32,008 nt of DNA from assembly GCA_002694885.1 (NCBI GenBank), contig NZNM01000106.1, positions 1 to 32,008 on the forward strand, written 5' to 3'. Below are positions 2,569 to 12,083 of this stretch, in pieces; position 1 is the stretch's first letter; each line of letters opens with the position of its first letter. The notes under the pieces were generated by a model. The model did no database searches, had not been told where the DNA came from, and saw only the letters and a list, made by a program, of their open reading frames with translations. The position numbers were made by a program, and so were the translations under genes. Origin of the DNA: Opitutaceae bacterium (GTDB lineage Bacteria > Verrucomicrobiota > Verrucomicrobiia > Opitutales > Opitutaceae).

Positions 2569-2805
2569 ATGGCTACCTACATTTACGAAACGATCCCCTC
2601 TTCGAATAACGAGAGCCCAGAGCGCTTCGAAATCCAGCAAAGCATGAACGACTCGCCTCTAACAGAACATCCCGAGAGCGGTGTTCCTGTTAAAAGAGTG
2701 ATTACCGGTGGCTATGGATTCAACGTAACCGGAAGCGAAAAGTCCGCTCCCGCGCCTCCGAGCAGTTGCTGCAATCAAGGAGGATGCGGTTGCTCTCCAA
2801 ACTAG
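2569..2805 (+). CDS. FmdB-like small protein with degenerate zinc ribbon
   Basis: A 78-residue protein. Residues 1-50 follow the FmdB/CxxC-CxxC 'putative regulatory protein' pattern: MATYIYET, then FEIQQSMNDSPLTEHPESG, then PVKRVITGG. In the usual family the ribbon carries two CxxC pairs at YxC-x-x-C and CPxC. Here these positions read YETIPSS and HPESG, so the usual ligands are absent. Instead the C-terminus has a Cys cluster (SCCNQGGCGCSPN) that may bind metal in another way. The role of the family is poorly known. It sits one base upstream of the glycosyltransferase gene, so the two are almost certainly translated from one message. No homology search could be run. Confidence 0.7.
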   Translation: MATYIYETIPSSNNESPERFEIQQSMNDSPLTEHPESGVPVKRVITGGYGFNVTGSEKSAPAPPSSCCNQGGCGCSPN

Positions 2806-2806
2806 A

Positions 2807-3961
2807 GTGTCGGAAAAACCACCGAACTCCATCGAATCTAAACGCATTTGCCTCGTTGAGCCGTTCTTCACCGGATCGCATCGGCGCTGGGCCAACGAAC
2901 TCGCTCAGCGATCCCGACATGATATTCGGATACTATCTTTGCCTGGCCGCCATTGGAAGTGGCGTATGCATGGAGCGGCCATAACCTTAGCCGAGGCGTT
3001 CCTCGAAGAACGCGAGCCATTCTCCGCTATTCTGGCGAGCGACATGCTCGATCTTCCCCTCTTTCTCTCCAGGATTCGGAGACGCAATCCATCCATTCCC
3101 ACGGGAGTATATTTCCACGAGAACCAGCTGTCCTACCCCTGGTCTCCGAGAGATGGAGACAAGAAGCGTGGCCAAGATCTGCATTATTCGTTTTTGAACT
3201 ATACGAGCGCGCTAGTAGCCGATACAGCGTTCTTCAACTCCGACTTTCATAGGCAGCGCTTTCTCCACGATTTGCCGGGTTTTCTTGAACGATATCCAGA
3301 TTACCATAATTTGGATACAGTAGAAGAGATCGAATCCAAGTCTCAAACGCTCTGGCTAGGAATGGATCTAGCGGCTTTCGACAAGCATCGTGTTCCAAAT
3401 CGCGGATCCAGCGACAATCGGCCTTTGATCCTCTGGAACCATCGCTGGGAATACGATAAAAACCCTATAGGGTTCTTCCGAATACTGTATCGCCTTATCG
3501 ATGACGGGATCGATTTCGATCTAGCGTTAGCAGGGGATCGTTTCGAAGAAGAGCCACCCTATTTTCAAGAAGCCAAAAAACGTCTGGGAAAACGCATCGT
3601 TCAATACGGGATGCTGGAATCTTTCGACGACTACGCCAAACTACTATGGAAATCCGACATTGCTCTCGTCACTTCCCATCAGGACTTTTTCGGTGGCAGC
3701 GTCGTCGAGTCTATCTACTGTGGCTGCCATCCTGTTCTCCCTCGCCGACTCGCCTACACTGACCATCTCCATCCGGACGATTTTCCAGACGTCTTCTATA
3801 ACGAAGAAGAGGAAGCTGTCGATCTTATCAAACAGCTTGTCGGCGCCAATCAGTGGCGAAAGCCATTTCACGAGGGACCCGCTACGGGCCGTTATGATTG
3901 GAACTCTCAAATCGACGCCTACGACGATGCTCTCGCCAAGCTCTCGGAGATTGTTGAATAA
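2807..3961 (+). CDS. Bacterial QTMAN-like glycosyltransferase (DUF3524, tRNA-queuosine mannosyltransferase-like)
   Basis: A 384-residue GT-B protein. Residues 13-65 (RICLVEPFFTGSHRRWANEL, then LPGRHWKWRMHGAA) match the DUF3524 N-terminal domain typical of animal GTDC1/QTMAN, which mannosylates queuosine in tRNA-Asp. The C-terminal half carries the donor-site motif HQDFFGGSVVESIYCGCHPVLP-like at about residues 291-311, with E301 in the nucleotide-sugar-binding position, and an ILWNHRWEYDKNP strand at 208-220. It starts with GTG one base after the FmdB-like stop; no in-frame ATG lies close upstream. A Shine-Dalgarno-like AAGGAGG at 2777-2783 lies inside the upstream gene, about 23 bases before the GTG, so translational coupling is likely. 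Substrate in bacteria is inferred, not shown: another possibility is a different hydroxylated acceptor. Confidence 0.8.
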   Translation: MSEKPPNSIESKRICLVEPFFTGSHRRWANELAQRSRHDIRILSLPGRHWKWRMHGAAITLAEAFLEEREPFSAILASDMLDLPLFLSRIRRRNPSIPTGVYFHENQLSYPWSPRDGDKKRGQDLHYSFLNYTSALVADTAFFNSDFHRQRFLHDLPGFLERYPDYHNLDTVEEIESKSQTLWLGMDLAAFDKHRVPNRGSSDNRPLILWNHRWEYDKNPIGFFRILYRLIDDGIDFDLALAGDRFEEEPPYFQEAKKRLGKRIVQYGMLESFDDYAKLLWKSDIALVTSHQDFFGGSVVESIYCGCHPVLPRRLAYTDHLHPDDFPDVFYNEEEEAVDLIKQLVGANQWRKPFHEGPATGRYDWNSQIDAYDDALAKLSEIVE

Positions 3962-4346: not shown

Positions 4347-5612
4347 TCAGTCCAAATCGATAATCGAGGCGTACTCGGGGTCGTACAACCGCTTATGAAT
4401 TCTCATCGCTTGGCCATCAGACAGGCTCGCAAGGTAATCTCGAGCCACTAACTGTTGCTCAGAGCGATTACCTTCAGCCTCCTGCATCCATGCAGCCGGC
4501 TGTTCTGGCAGAATTCGCGATCGCTGCCCGGAGGTATTTATGTAGCATTCAGCGATTGCTTGGAAAATCTCCTCCAAAATTCGGTCTCCCTTGAAATCCA
4601 TTTGCTGCAACGGAGCGGAACGGAAAATCAAATCTAGGGCCACCCGCTTATAGAAACCAGCCAGCTGCTTGACTTCTCCATCCACTTTCAAGGCGAAAGC
4701 ATACCGGTTGGACTGGACTACCAAAGCATTATCGCGTGGCGCTAACCGGCAAGCTTTGATGAACAAGCCGATTTTCGCTCCAAATATGGCTTCAAGTTTG
4801 TCCTTTCGGATCTCGTCTATTAGCGCCGTGAACAGTGGCTCAGTAACGGCGTCGAGGCCCTCTCGGGCCGCCCAGCGCTCAAGACGCTCGATCGTCAAAA
4901 AACCTGCCCTGACCCCATCGACAAGGTCGTTCAGGCAATAAGCCGTATCATCAGCCCAGTCCATGATTTGGCATTCCAAACTGGTAAGCTGATTGAGCGA
5001 TTCACCGCATTGCGATCCAGAAGCTCCTTCGTGAGCGAAATCTCGATACGCCTTTTGAAAGTCATAGATGAAGTGATTTCGAGGACTCCCTTTTTCAGAG
5101 TGGGTAGCCTTGTACTTGAGCACGCCATCGAGAAAGGCTCTAGTGGGGGACATACCGCTGCGTCTGCCGCCCGAATGATAGAGCGTATCGGTTATCAACC
5201 TAAGGGTTTGGGCATTTCCTTCGAATCCTCCAATGTTCGAAAACAGGCGGTGCAATGTCCGCTCACCGCCATGCCCAAATGGCGGATGCCCCAAATCATG
5301 GCTCAAGCAACAGGCCTCAACCAAATCAGAATCGATATGGAATTCCGAATTCAATTGCTCCGAGCTTCCGTTGAGAAACGCGCAGATCGAACGCCCGATC
5401 TGGGCAACTTCAATCGAGTGCGTCAGTCGAGTCCGATAAAAATCGTACTCACCCGAAAGGTATACTTGCGTTTTGGACTGCAGCTTTCGGAAAGCTGCCG
5501 AGTGTATTATGCGATCCCGATCAATTTGAAACGGTGTCCGATAATCGCTGGGCCGATTCCCTCCGGGCAGCGGCTCTAGATCGAACTCCTTATAGAACGC
5601 GTTCCCAGTCAT
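4347..5612 (-). CDS. dgt: dGTPase-like HD-domain triphosphohydrolase
   Basis: Likely deoxyguanosinetriphosphate triphosphohydrolase-like protein (dNTP to deoxynucleoside plus triphosphate), 421 residues. The N-terminal signature DYRTPFQIDRDRIIHSAAFRKLQ is followed by the HD metal site: H65 in RTRLTHSIEVAQI, H105-D106 in SHDLGHPPFGHGGE, and D218/D221/D222 in MDWADDTAY. The length suits the shorter dGTPase-like branch rather than the 505-residue E. coli Dgt; some of these act on several dNTPs. ATG start at 5612; it lies 47 bases past the end of glyA on the same strand and may be co-transcribed with it. Confidence 0.9.
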   Translation of the reverse strand: MTGNAFYKEFDLEPLPGGNRPSDYRTPFQIDRDRIIHSAAFRKLQSKTQVYLSGEYDFYRTRLTHSIEVAQIGRSICAFLNGSSEQLNSEFHIDSDLVEACCLSHDLGHPPFGHGGERTLHRLFSNIGGFEGNAQTLRLITDTLYHSGGRRSGMSPTRAFLDGVLKYKATHSEKGSPRNHFIYDFQKAYRDFAHEGASGSQCGESLNQLTSLECQIMDWADDTAYCLNDLVDGVRAGFLTIERLERWAAREGLDAVTEPLFTALIDEIRKDKLEAIFGAKIGLFIKACRLAPRDNALVVQSNRYAFALKVDGEVKQLAGFYKRVALDLIFRSAPLQQMDFKGDRILEEIFQAIAECYINTSGQRSRILPEQPAAWMQEAEGNRSEQQLVARDYLASLSDGQAMRIHKRLYDPEYASIIDLD

Positions 5613-9257: not shown

Positions 9258-9345
9258 TCGCCTTCCAATTAAAACTCGAGGGGAATCAGCCACTCTTTCA
9301 ACAATCGTTGCTCTCGCCACACCTCCTAGGTCTTTGCCAATCCCG

Positions 9346-10167
9346 ATGAATGATGCTGCCCAGATGGATGCCTTGAAGACGATTGAGGCATGGTTCAGCG
9401 GAGTGGAAGGTAGCCTTACCGCCTTTTCCGGTGGTGTCGATTCGGCTCTCGTCCTGTATCTGTCTCACCGCTTTCTCGGCGAGAAGGGCATTGGCGTGGT
9501 CGCTGATTCCCCGAGCTTGAAACGGTCGGATCTGCAAATCGCCAAAGACTTTTGCCAGCAATACGGCATCACTCTGCGAATTTTGAAAACGAACGAGCTG
9601 GACAATCCAGACTACGCAAAGAACCCCTTCAATCGCTGCTATTACTGCAAAGACACGCTGTACCGACAACTCAGAGAGCTTCAAGAAAGCGAATTCCCTC
9701 AATTCCATTTGCTGAACGGCGCGAATCAAGATGATCTGCAGGACCATCGGCCCGGACACCAAGCAGCCAAGGAGCAGACCATTCATTCCCCCCTGGCCGA
9801 TTGTGGTCTCAGTAAAGCGGAGATCCGTTCGCTTGCCCGCCGATTTGAACTGCCAGTCTGGAGCAAGCCGGCCAGCCCCTGCATGAGTTCGCGCATCCCC
9901 TACGGGCAATCAGTATCCAAAGAAAAACTATCGCAAATCGAATCAGCGGAAGTTACGCTCAATCAACTCGGCTTTGAGGAGGTGCGGGTTCGGCACTTCG
10001 GAGATACCGCTCGCATCGAGGCTCCAACCGATTCGATTCCCCGACTGCAAACCTTGTTTCCTCTAGTCGAACGAGCCCTGCAAGGCATCGGCTTTCAGAG
10101 AATCGAAATCGACGAGGAAGGTCTGATTTCCGGAAAACTCAATCGAGCTATACAAGCGAATGGATGA
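9346..10167 (+). CDS. larE: Pyridinium-3,5-bisthiocarboxylate mononucleotide sulfurtransferase LarE
   Basis: ATP-dependent sulfur transferase that converts the two carboxylates of the nickel-pincer precursor into thiocarboxylates. The PP-loop SGGVDS is at residues 28-33 when counted from the ATG at 9346 (an upstream in-frame TTG at 9334 is less likely). Cysteines sit in NRCYYCKDTLY (C98, C101) and SKPASPCMSSR (C179). In Lactobacillus LarE a Cys at the C179 position is the sacrificed sulfur donor. From memory, enzymes with all three cysteines can hold a [4Fe-4S] cluster and use sulfide catalytically, so the three-Cys type is likely here. The stop overlaps the larB start by 8 bases. Confidence 0.93.
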   Translation: MNDAAQMDALKTIEAWFSGVEGSLTAFSGGVDSALVLYLSHRFLGEKGIGVVADSPSLKRSDLQIAKDFCQQYGITLRILKTNELDNPDYAKNPFNRCYYCKDTLYRQLRELQESEFPQFHLLNGANQDDLQDHRPGHQAAKEQTIHSPLADCGLSKAEIRSLARRFELPVWSKPASPCMSSRIPYGQSVSKEKLSQIESAEVTLNQLGFEEVRVRHFGDTARIEAPTDSIPRLQTLFPLVERALQGIGFQRIEIDEEGLISGKLNRAIQANG

Positions 10168-10822
10168 TTTCATATTGGATACCGATCGCGAAAAACGGTT
10201 AGGGTTTCCTGAAGTCATCTTCGGCAGCTCGAAATCAGTAGATCTCCTTCGACGCATTCTCAACGAGTATCACTCCAAAGGGGAGAATGCCTTGGCCACC
10301 CGCGTACAGCCCGATAAAGGCCACGCCCTAATGGAATCCTTTCCCGACGCCCACTACGACTCGGGTTCCCAATCCTTCCTGCTCCAATACCGTAAACTCG
10401 ATGATACTAATGCTCCCATCGCCATTCTGAGCGCCGGCAGTTCCGATCTAAGCGCCGTCAACGAGGCCTACTTCACTCTAAATTTATTAGGTACTGCTGC
10501 CAAGCGAGTCAATGACGTAGGTGTTGCGGGGATACATCGCCTATTCAACCGATTAGACGATTTCAAAGAATGTCGAGTCCTGATCGTCGTGGCTGGATTT
10601 GAAGGCGCTCTTCCTAGCGTTGTCGGGGGCTTGCTTTCCCAGCCGATAATCGCCGTTCCGACGAGCGTCGGGTATGGCGTCGCCCAAAGCGGGACCACCG
10701 CTCTCCACGCCATGCTGACCAGCTGCTCCAATGGAATCACCGTCACCAATATCGATAATGGCTACGGAGCTGCCATGGCCGCCTACCGAATATTGAGGCA
10801 GATCGAAGCGGATCCCTCCTAA
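10160..10822 (+). CDS. larB: Pyridinium-3,5-biscarboxylic acid mononucleotide synthase LarB
   Basis: First step of nickel-pincer cofactor synthesis: carboxylates nicotinic acid adenine dinucleotide and releases AMP. The 220-residue protein has the LarB N-terminal region (KRLGFPEVIFGSSKS) and a PurE-like C-terminal domain. Visible motifs are ILSAGSSDLSAVNEA (89-103), DVGVAGIHRL (119-128), AGFEGALPSVVGGL (145-158) and VPTSVGYG. Its start overlaps the end of larE, so translation is coupled. It is sometimes annotated as an AIR carboxylase because of the PurE fold; the larE/larC neighbours settle the call. Confidence 0.95.
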   Translation: MDDFILDTDREKRLGFPEVIFGSSKSVDLLRRILNEYHSKGENALATRVQPDKGHALMESFPDAHYDSGSQSFLLQYRKLDDTNAPIAILSAGSSDLSAVNEAYFTLNLLGTAAKRVNDVGVAGIHRLFNRLDDFKECRVLIVVAGFEGALPSVVGGLLSQPIIAVPTSVGYGVAQSGTTALHAMLTSCSNGITVTNIDNGYGAAMAAYRILRQIEADPS

Positions 10823-10859
10823 ACGATCGGATACTGGCTAACCAACCGCTATCTCAATC

Positions 10860-12083
10860 ATGAAAGTGCTCTACATCGAACCCTTCTCCGGCCTATCGGG
10901 CGATATGTTTCTTGGATCCTTGTGCGGATTGCTCGATGCCTACGATGAGATCCTGGATCTGCCAGAGAAATTGAATCTTCCGGATGGTCGTATCGCAATT
11001 ACGCCTACAGAAAAGAACGGAATCGTTTGCAAGCAGATTCGGGTCATTGACCTAAACGAGACATCCGAGAGCTCAGGGCATCATCATCACCACGACCACG
11101 ATGAATCTGAAAGCGGCCATCATCACGGTCACCACCACCATCATCATCGACATCTGAGCGACATCATAAAGATCATCGATGAAGCGGCGATTACAGCTGA
11201 GGCGAAGCGGATCGCTAAAGAAATTTTCCAATTTATCGGTGAAGCCGAGTCGCAAGTGCACGACATTCCGATCGAGGAGATCCATTTTCATGAGATCAGC
11301 GCGGTGGACTCGATCATCGATATAATCGGTTGCGCGGCGCTACTGGAGCGCCTGAAGATTTCCAAGACCTATTGCGACCCCATTTGCGTTGGTTACGGGA
11401 TGGTTTCCACCCAGCACGGCAGGCTTCCCGTTCCTGCGCCAGCAACGGCAAAATTGCTGTATGGAATGCCTACATACAAAGGTGACGAGGAAGGCGAGCG
11501 GGTCACTCCTACAGGTGCCGCTATTCTCAAGTACTTGAATCCTGTCTTTGCCTCGCCTGAAATCGCAATCGAACAAAGCGCTTACGGTCCCGGGCAAAAG
11601 GAGTTCGTCGCTCCCAATGTTCTTAGACTCTCGATCGGAACCGTCTCAGGCGAGCCGGATTCCCTTTTCTCCGTGGAAACCAATTTAGATGATTGTCCGC
11701 CAGAATCGCTGGGATCACATTTCCAAGATCGTCTAAAGGAAGCTGGCGCAATCGATTTTACCATTTCCCCGGTCACGATGAAAAAAGGTCGCCCCGGCTT
11801 TTGCCTCAGCGTCTTGGCTTCCAAATCCCAGCTTGAGACCGTCTGCGATGCCATTCTGGAGAACACCAGCGCCATCGGCGTCCGCTATTTCCCGGTTGAG
11901 CGAAAGATACTCGAGCGCACGGAAGAATCCAAAACCACGCCCTTCGGTGAATTCCGCATTAAGACCGTTACTACGCCCTCCGGAAAATCGAGGTTTAAGA
12001 TCGAATCCGACGATCTAGAACGAGCCTCTAGGGAGCATGGTATTCCCGTAACCGAACTGCGTCGCAAACTGGAAAACCTATAG
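10860..12083 (+). CDS. larC: Nickel insertion protein LarC (pincer cofactor cyclometallase)
   Basis: CTP-dependent enzyme that inserts nickel into the bisthiocarboxylate precursor to give the mature (SCS)Ni pincer cofactor. The 407-residue protein starts MKVLYIEPFSGLSGDMFLGSL, a LarC hallmark, and has HFHEISAVDSIIDIIG and PVPAPATAKLL in the N-domain and NLDDCPPE in the C-domain. A nickel-storage-like insert at residues 74-98 is very His-rich: 16 His in 25 residues. It is one uninterrupted frame, whereas in Lactobacillus plantarum larC is read through a frameshift. It lies 37 bases after larB in the operon. No LarA-type racemase is in the window. Confidence 0.95.
   Translation: MKVLYIEPFSGLSGDMFLGSLCGLLDAYDEILDLPEKLNLPDGRIAITPTEKNGIVCKQIRVIDLNETSESSGHHHHHDHDESESGHHHGHHHHHHRHLSDIIKIIDEAAITAEAKRIAKEIFQFIGEAESQVHDIPIEEIHFHEISAVDSIIDIIGCAALLERLKISKTYCDPICVGYGMVSTQHGRLPVPAPATAKLLYGMPTYKGDEEGERVTPTGAAILKYLNPVFASPEIAIEQSAYGPGQKEFVAPNVLRLSIGTVSGEPDSLFSVETNLDDCPPESLGSHFQDRLKEAGAIDFTISPVTMKKGRPGFCLSVLASKSQLETVCDAILENTSAIGVRYFPVERKILERTEESKTTPFGEFRIKTVTTPSGKSRFKIESDDLERASREHGIPVTELRRKLENL

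Follow-up and report, generated by a model that had tools for sequence, protein, structure and literature searches.

A candidate queuosine glycosyltransferase of the bacterial QTMAN branch beside a cysteine-tailed FmdB relative in the Opitutales

The window, i.e., the whole stretch of DNA analysed here, comprises 32,008 nucleotides from an Opitutaceae bacterium (contig NZNM01000106.1 of assembly GCA_002694885.1). Close to its beginning, two neighbouring genes encode a small protein derived from FmdB and a glycosyltransferase of the QTMAN family. Their features are as follows.

2569..2805, forward strand: gene of the FmdB-derived small protein, 78 aa, with ATG start at 2569 and TAG stop at 2803-2805
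2668..2670, forward strand: codon of His34 (HPxxG), invariant in 11 aligned members
2767..2793, forward strand: C-terminal Cys cluster CCNQGGCGC (Cys 67, 68, 73 and 75)
2807..3961, forward strand: gene of the QTMAN-family GT4-like glycosyltransferase, 384 aa, with GTG start at 2807 and stop at 3959-3961
2843..3364, forward strand: QTMAN_N domain (PF12038), 187.9 bits at the DNA level, no stops
within QTMAN_N: motifs WKWRM (residues 50-54) and HENQ (residues 104-107), invariant in 41 aligned members
3443..3460, forward strand: Arg213 to Lys218, each of these two residues invariant (41/41)
3683..3709, forward strand: Asp293-x7-Glu301; position 293 is D in 35/41 and E in 6/41, position 301 is E in 32/41 and Q in 9/41

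An earlier sequence-only reading had put the two genes one base apart, and the window sequence agrees: a single base lies between the stop codon of the small gene and the start of the glycosyltransferase gene. Both genes probably belong to one transcription unit.

The glycosyltransferase is a member of the QTMAN family. The QTMAN_N model PF12038 is matched over its full profile (1-168 of 168) with 185.6 bits, far over the curated cut-off of 25, which bears out the QTMAN-like (DUF3524) identity first proposed from the letters. The model Glycos_transf_1 (PF00534) is matched just over its cut-off (27 vs 26.4). Besides WKWRM and HENQ, the motif NHRWExDK is also invariant in the 41-member alignment. 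Arg213 and Lys218 are the pair that we would expect to hold the donor diphosphate in GT4 enzymes, and the (D/E)-x7-E pattern at positions 293-301 is taken here to be the signature of retaining GT4 enzymes; its second catalytic Glu, at position 301, is E in the window protein. Identity of the window protein is 27-33% to five other Verrucomicrobiota members, and 43-65% to 40 members obtained from a scan of species genomes.

An AlphaFold2 model produced with the 41-member alignment (pLDDT 90.6, pTM 0.90) presents a predicted GT-B fold with the GT4 catalytic signature. The best 50 solved chains matched to this model are all GT-B sugar transferases, with Z scores from 31 downward over 301-344 residues, and include the mannosyltransferases 7qsg (Z = 29.4), PimB’ with GDP-Man (3oka, Z = 26.1) and PimA with GDP-Man (2gej, Z = 25.1). 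No solved QTMAN structure was found by sequence search or among these 50 matches. The enzyme resembles the GT4 enzymes BshA, MshA, PimA and PimB’ in its GT-B fold and retaining GT4 signature (Z = 25-29), yet it is only 12-17% identical to them in the structural alignments, and their acceptors are other ones. Given that BshA and MshA (thiol cofactors), SenB and the tetrahydrobiopterin glucosyltransferase 9v0l (Z = 25.4) are also among the nearest folds, a few Z units apart, the fold is silent on the acceptor.

These neighbours in fold space favour a different reading of the family, which we regard as possible, though doubtful: the bacterial homologue would transfer sugar to another small acceptor, for instance a pterin or thiol cofactor, or else a lipid or surface polysaccharide; the Pfam model would then have given it the name of the animal enzyme. 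However, a QTMAN_N match so far over the cut-off and such long invariant motifs would be unexpected if acceptors varied freely.

The scan of species genomes yielded at least 590 pattern matches, at least 577 of which are QTMAN relatives. According to the records’ own labels, the best 80 of these (at least 577) relatives are distributed among Bacteroidota, Balneolota, Thermodesulfobacteriota, Myxococcota, Fidelibacterota, KSB1, Chloroflexota, Krumholzibacteriota and Opitutales, with one planctomycete and one Bacillota member. Carriers named in the scan include Pelagicoccus sp. SDUM812005, Geomonas paludis, Flavilitoribacter nigricans and Balneola sp. EhC07. In even samples the family is uncommon, being present in 6 of 194 Verrucomicrobiota, 7 of 177 genomes of the host’s order and 24 of 198 Chloroflexota. 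No viral relatives were found in IMG/VR (two patterns) or in phage records, and the viral fold matches to the model are general GT-B glycosyltransferases only.

The QTMAN tree holds 93 of 96 rows, leaving out L018, L068 and L070 (fragments of 7, 4 and 13 residues); the rows L016/L122 and L086/L121 are identical, since the same sequences came via two collections. The window gene forms one clade with L007, L008, L009, L052 and L079, with support 100/97. This Opitutales clade nests in a Bacteroidota/Balneolota group (97/78) and its nearest outside row is a Saprospiraceae MAG (97/76), although both supports fall under the tool’s bar of 95/80. The remaining Verrucomicrobiota rows (L002-L006) are placed elsewhere. 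This topology is most simply explained by a single transfer into one clade of Opitutales, the donor probably being Saprospiraceae-like (Bacteroidota). A divergent QTMAN_N branch was also observed in two families of the host’s order (L006, from genome G119, and L137-L139), with 26-30% identity to the window protein; the G119 member is 27% identical, with a branch of 3.99, and its genome is rated 100% complete.

As for the proposed acceptor, the host organism has queuosine (Q) genes: Tgt at G000:C116:11803-12906 (477.7 bits) and QueG at G000:C120:16087-17049 (301.2 bits vs a cut-off of 200), with no match to QueH in the host genome. A wider set of 79 QTMAN carriers was assembled from 6 Verrucomicrobiota, 50 genomes from the loci of the best-80 scan and 23 further Chloroflexota. 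Tgt is found in 73 of them (51/56 and 22/23). QueG is over its cut-off in 33 and QueH in 38, never both, so that 71 carriers have either; the QTMAN family goes with either of two unrelated Q-making enzymes. Six of the QueH carriers (G426, G443, G479, G508, G524 and G586) additionally have a full-length QueG-like match of 137-159 bits, under the cut-off of 200. Neither enzyme is over cut-off in eight carriers (G117, G129, G203, G213, G215, G220, G221 and G231), among which G117 and G129 have QueG-like matches over most of the profile, also under the cut-off (121 and 131 bits).

At least one of Tgt, QueG and QueH is present in 77 of the 79 carriers. The exceptions, at the thresholds used, are G215, which has a 65.6-bit QueG fragment, and G231. 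The sequence-only reading had offered co-occurrence with queuosine genes as a check and the gene’s occurrence in genomes without tgt as grounds for refutation. Co-occurrence is found, and 77 of 79 argues against another acceptor. Still, 186 of 194 Verrucomicrobiota and 190 of 198 Chloroflexota have Tgt, against 5/6 and 22/24 of the respective carriers, i.e., with no excess; given that it is near-universal in both control phyla, its co-occurrence hardly tests the acceptor, and it was set aside as uninformative on function. Conversely, six carriers do lack a Tgt match (G119, G204, G206, G215, G231 and G431), but these are hard to read as a refutation because four of them (G119, G204, G206 and G431) have QueG or QueH, meaning the pathway is there or has left traces. 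The divergent member in G119 speaks for another acceptor, the genome having no Tgt match, yet that same genome has a QueG of 355 bits and, to our knowledge, QueG acts only on epoxyqueuosine in tRNA. In Chloroflexota, QueH is present in all 24 QTMAN-positive genomes and in 140 of 174 QTMAN-negative ones (one-sided Fisher p = 0.008, uncorrected for kinship), a weak excess that fits a Q acceptor.

Gene neighbourhoods lean the other way. None of eight query proteins (two each of Tgt, QueG, QueH and GluQRS, one of the Tgt queries being a 216-aa piece) had a match near QTMAN in 95 loci, which favours an acceptor other than queuosine. The recurrent neighbours, counted over those 95 loci minus L014, L019, L041, L060 and L128, are lineage-specific only: an alpha/beta hydrolase in 14 loci and TyrRS-SmpB in 8 loci (hydrolase and SmpB named by eye).

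Taken as a whole, the explanation to which we give somewhat better than even confidence is that the enzyme belongs to a bacterial QTMAN branch that glycosylates Q34, with the small gene as a positional or regulatory neighbour; judging from the sequences, queuosine is most likely the acceptor of the window enzyme. The enzyme would be a GT-B glycosyltransferase of the retaining kind that takes its sugar from a nucleotide donor. Once the Q pathway with Tgt, QueA and QueG had made Q, the enzyme would attach a single hexose to the cyclopentene-diol of this base, in position 34 of one of the four tRNAs that have a GUN anticodon. Q34 is the presumed acceptor, and the sugar is putatively mannose, by analogy with the animal enzyme. 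The gene would have reached the clade in one transfer from the Saprospiraceae-like source, and it would have landed once behind an FmdB-like gene, the two staying together since. The small protein, in turn, belongs to a family of the Opitutales that descends from the FmdB zinc ribbon; it has lost both knuckles and has a Cys tail that may bind soft metal or metalloid ions.

Animal QTMAN (GTDC1, tRNA-queuosine alpha-mannosyltransferase) is specific for tRNA-Asp. The window enzyme is like it in having a full-length QTMAN_N by the PF12038 profile, a GT4-like C-terminal domain and a Q-making organism, and unlike it in being bacterial, in belonging to a two-gene unit and in sharing its genome with GluQRS. 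The latter (YadB, glutamyl-Q34 tRNA-Asp synthetase) is likewise a bacterial enzyme for a second modification of Q34, with fold and chemistry unrelated to QTMAN. GluQRS modifies Q34 of tRNA-Asp, the very base that animal QTMAN caps; were the bacterial enzyme to do likewise, the two would be predicted to exclude each other. This prediction failed. The host genome has a GluQRS on another contig than the pair (G000:C122; NF004315, 262.3 bits vs 250). GluQRS is over the TIGR03838 cut-off (276.7) in 10 of the 79 carriers, and eight more, host included, have a GluQRS frame of 291-365 codons with 194-268 bits, under that cut-off; G207 and G225, with partial frames, may have to be added. GluQRS is found in only part of the carriers. 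Where they coexist, either both enzymes act on tRNA-Asp, or QTMAN serves another tRNA.

Gene context offers one candidate for such a tRNA. Two Pelagicoccus loci (L052, 3258-4544; L009, 3214-4494) have the gene tyrS immediately before the pair, and tyrS with smpB adjoins QTMAN in eight loci (L025, L028, L040, L054, L064, L068, L071 and L073), i.e., seven of Fidelibacterota plus L068. Given that the Pelagicoccus and Fidelibacterota-type TyrRS are of unlike types, only 26-32% identical, the two tyrS contexts look independent. tRNA-Tyr may therefore be put forward as a candidate substrate of QTMAN, and no more than that. A refinement of the preferred explanation follows, in which QTMAN would modify Q34 in tRNA-Tyr (or His/Asn) and leave tRNA-Asp to GluQRS, hence their coexistence. 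The shared genomes, the host’s included, and the two tyrS contexts are in its favour, but the contexts are only two, no aminoacyl-tRNA synthetase was seen by eye in 18 loci of other groups, and the animal enzyme acts on tRNA-Asp; we consider this refinement unlikely.

The relation between the two genes was assessed with tblastn searches for the FmdB-like protein in 101 QTMAN loci (L001-L086, L119-L128 and L135-L139), upstream DNA being short in a few of them and almost absent in L069 and L077. An FmdB-like gene lies directly upstream of QTMAN in all six members of the Opitutales clade and in none of the other 95 loci, which include the other six QTMAN carriers found in the host’s order. Outside the six clade loci, no FmdB-like match was better than E = 0.04; a single-locus run on L136 gave E = 0.006 at a position inside the QTMAN gene. 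Conservation of the pair, which had been conjectured from the window, is thus real within one clade and does not extend beyond it. Chance is not the explanation, because all five other genomes have the small protein, at 64-76% identity, encoded immediately before this enzyme. From the FmdB-like gene to the nearest in-frame QTMAN starts, the gaps are 1 base in the window, 25 in L007, 7 in L008, 27 or 114-117 in L009, 86 in L052 and 9 in L079. On the upstream side, lnt lies on the opposite strand in the window, in L008 and in L079, and also in L007 with one further opposite-strand frame between. In the Pelagicoccus loci L009 and L052 tyrS takes the place of lnt, so the two genes stay together even in different surroundings.

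The small protein was described in the sequence-only reading as FmdB-like without the CxxC ligands, and this description held. It retains residual similarity to the FmdB zinc ribbon over the second half of the ribbon, with matches that begin at profile position 13-14 and stay below both curated cut-offs (PF09723, 17.5 bits vs 34.4; TIGR02605, 21.6 vs 31.3). In contrast with the ordinary ribbon, both CxxC knuckles are gone and a Cys tail is present. His34 presumably stands where the second CxxC begins in ordinary FmdB, going by the FmdB motif CPxCG. Cys68, Cys73 and His34 are invariant in the 11 aligned members.

A match to the small protein was found in 89 of the 177 genomes of the host’s order. 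The 30 loci read were the best-scoring in the order, one per genome, whereas weaker matches mostly span residues 1-46. All of these best 30 members align over most of the protein, have no CxxC in the first 50 residues and carry at least three Cys in the tail. The C-terminal Cys cluster, which had been called new, is hence present as described but common to the best 30 members in the order instead of peculiar to the gene pair.

Several genomic contexts were observed for these FmdB-like genes, and the common thread of several of them is metal, metalloid and sulfur. Ten of the best 30 loci lie in arsenic clusters (L091, L095, L096, L098, L099, L103, L104, L106, L108 and L117). The arsenic genes (ArsA, ArsC, ACR3 and ArsM) were called by short motifs, and four proteins were checked by family search: ACR3 and ArsM are over cut-off, ArsC is below its cut-offs, and ArsA is below the ArsA equivalog cut-off but over that of the GET3/ArsA subfamily. 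Five loci have uppS as a neighbour, and in four of them cysH flanks the FmdB-like gene from the opposite side; the two genes were named by eye, with a check of both in L092. Two adjoin a CobW-type GTPase, which in L111 matches the zinc chaperone ZigA with 611 bits and in L116 is 81% identical. We know of no described role for an FmdB relative in arsenic clusters, and a search of the literature on FmdB found nothing on such a role. A role as an arsenic-resistance accessory protein was considered for the small protein, but at the window locus the neighbours of its gene are lnt and QTMAN, with no ars cluster. No match to the FmdB-like protein was found in plasmids. The likeliest description is a predicted thiol-based binder of metal or metalloid ions, acting via its tail.

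A further context involves GluQRS. Of five sampled members of the family whose genomes lack QTMAN, four (G010, G075, G099 and G122; not G143) have a co-directional GluQRS 0.6-4.3 kb ahead of the FmdB-like gene. G099 shows the series GluQRS-Mog-FmdB, all in one direction and with gaps of 71 and 44 bases (L144, 8002-9763; GluQRS over the NF004315 cut-off), Mog being the molybdopterin adenylyltransferase between them. This second meeting of an FmdB-like gene with a Q34 enzyme is a lead, though the arrangement in the four genomes may be one inherited event. The loci of the three other genomes, which are related to G099, are L140, L141 and L142.

Two readings of the adjacency were weighed with these data. 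According to one, the two gene products are a functional pair, the FmdB-like one being a Cys-tailed accessory (a metal or redox carrier, or an RNA-binding aid) of enzymes that act on the Q34 diol. The adjacency in 6/6 clade members, kept where the upstream gene differs, agrees with this, as does the position of GluQRS, the other bacterial Q34 modifier, in the four QTMAN-less genomes. However, 95 of the 101 QTMAN loci have no FmdB-like gene, and the FmdB-like family also occurs in arsenic clusters and beside uppS/cysH or a zinc chaperone; the GluQRS arrangement may date from a single event in one family, and the host’s own GluQRS is on another contig. We find a functional pair quite improbable.

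According to the other reading, which we hold to be fairly probable and which is compatible with the preferred explanation for the enzyme, the adjacency is a positional accident without joint function. A single origin explains the six cases, and the FmdB-like family occurs in many contexts, mostly without QTMAN: among the genomes of the best 30 members, 26 have no QTMAN_N and only four do (G000, G119, G285 and G357), with adjacency only in G000. Persistence of the pair where the upstream neighbour differs, and a gap as short as one base, weigh against a mere accident. The partnership is probably positional or regulatory and not catalytic; the small partner most likely does not belong to the sugar-transfer reaction, and it looks like a resident metal-binding protein that is predicted not to be an essential partner.

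The suggestion that the pair marks a bacterial tRNA-modifying system hence divides in two: a QTMAN-family member in a host with Tgt and QueG stands, while the FmdB-like protein as a dedicated part of that system does not, given the 95 of 101 QTMAN loci without it and the 26 of the best 30 FmdB-like genomes without QTMAN. A bolder combination, which we deem very improbable, would have sugar-capped queuosine made in many phyla by QTMAN acting on a Q34 tRNA other than tRNA-Asp (tRNA-Tyr being the first candidate), with the FmdB relative as a helper shared by Q34-diol enzymes in Opitutales, its gene being close to that of GluQRS in one lineage and next to that of QTMAN in a second.

QTMAN was reportedly identified in a Cell paper of 2023. 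No bacterial sugar-queuosine was found in the open-access literature searched, which is no proof of its absence. For hexosyl-Q, the mass transition m/z 572.2 to 163.1 is given in PMC8654956. In a review, sugar-queuosine is described as a vertebrate modification and glutamyl-queuosine as a bacterial one (PMC12710937). As far as the open-access literature shows, the novelty here lies in how widely a probable Q34 glycosylation extends among bacteria, and in the coexistence of QTMAN and GluQRS. Given that QTMAN relatives are present in many queuosine-making bacteria, sugar-capped queuosine in bacteria is directly testable. Hexosyl-Q in a single carrier would mean that animal-type glycosylation of the wobble base exists in bacteria, perhaps widely, and the bacterial branch would then offer a way to study how the animal enzyme arose.

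Two other regions of the window were observed in passing. At 9334-12083, larE, larB and larC of the nickel-pincer cofactor pathway lie in a row, larC being a single frame that includes both LarC1 and LarC2, the former preceded by a His-rich stretch; no larA was seen by eye in the window’s ORF list. At 4347-5612, shortly after the pair, lies the gene of a dGTP triphosphohydrolase that comes close to the model of anti-phage dGTPases (343 bits vs a cut-off of 400), and a similar gene was seen by eye further downstream of QTMAN in L007 and L079.
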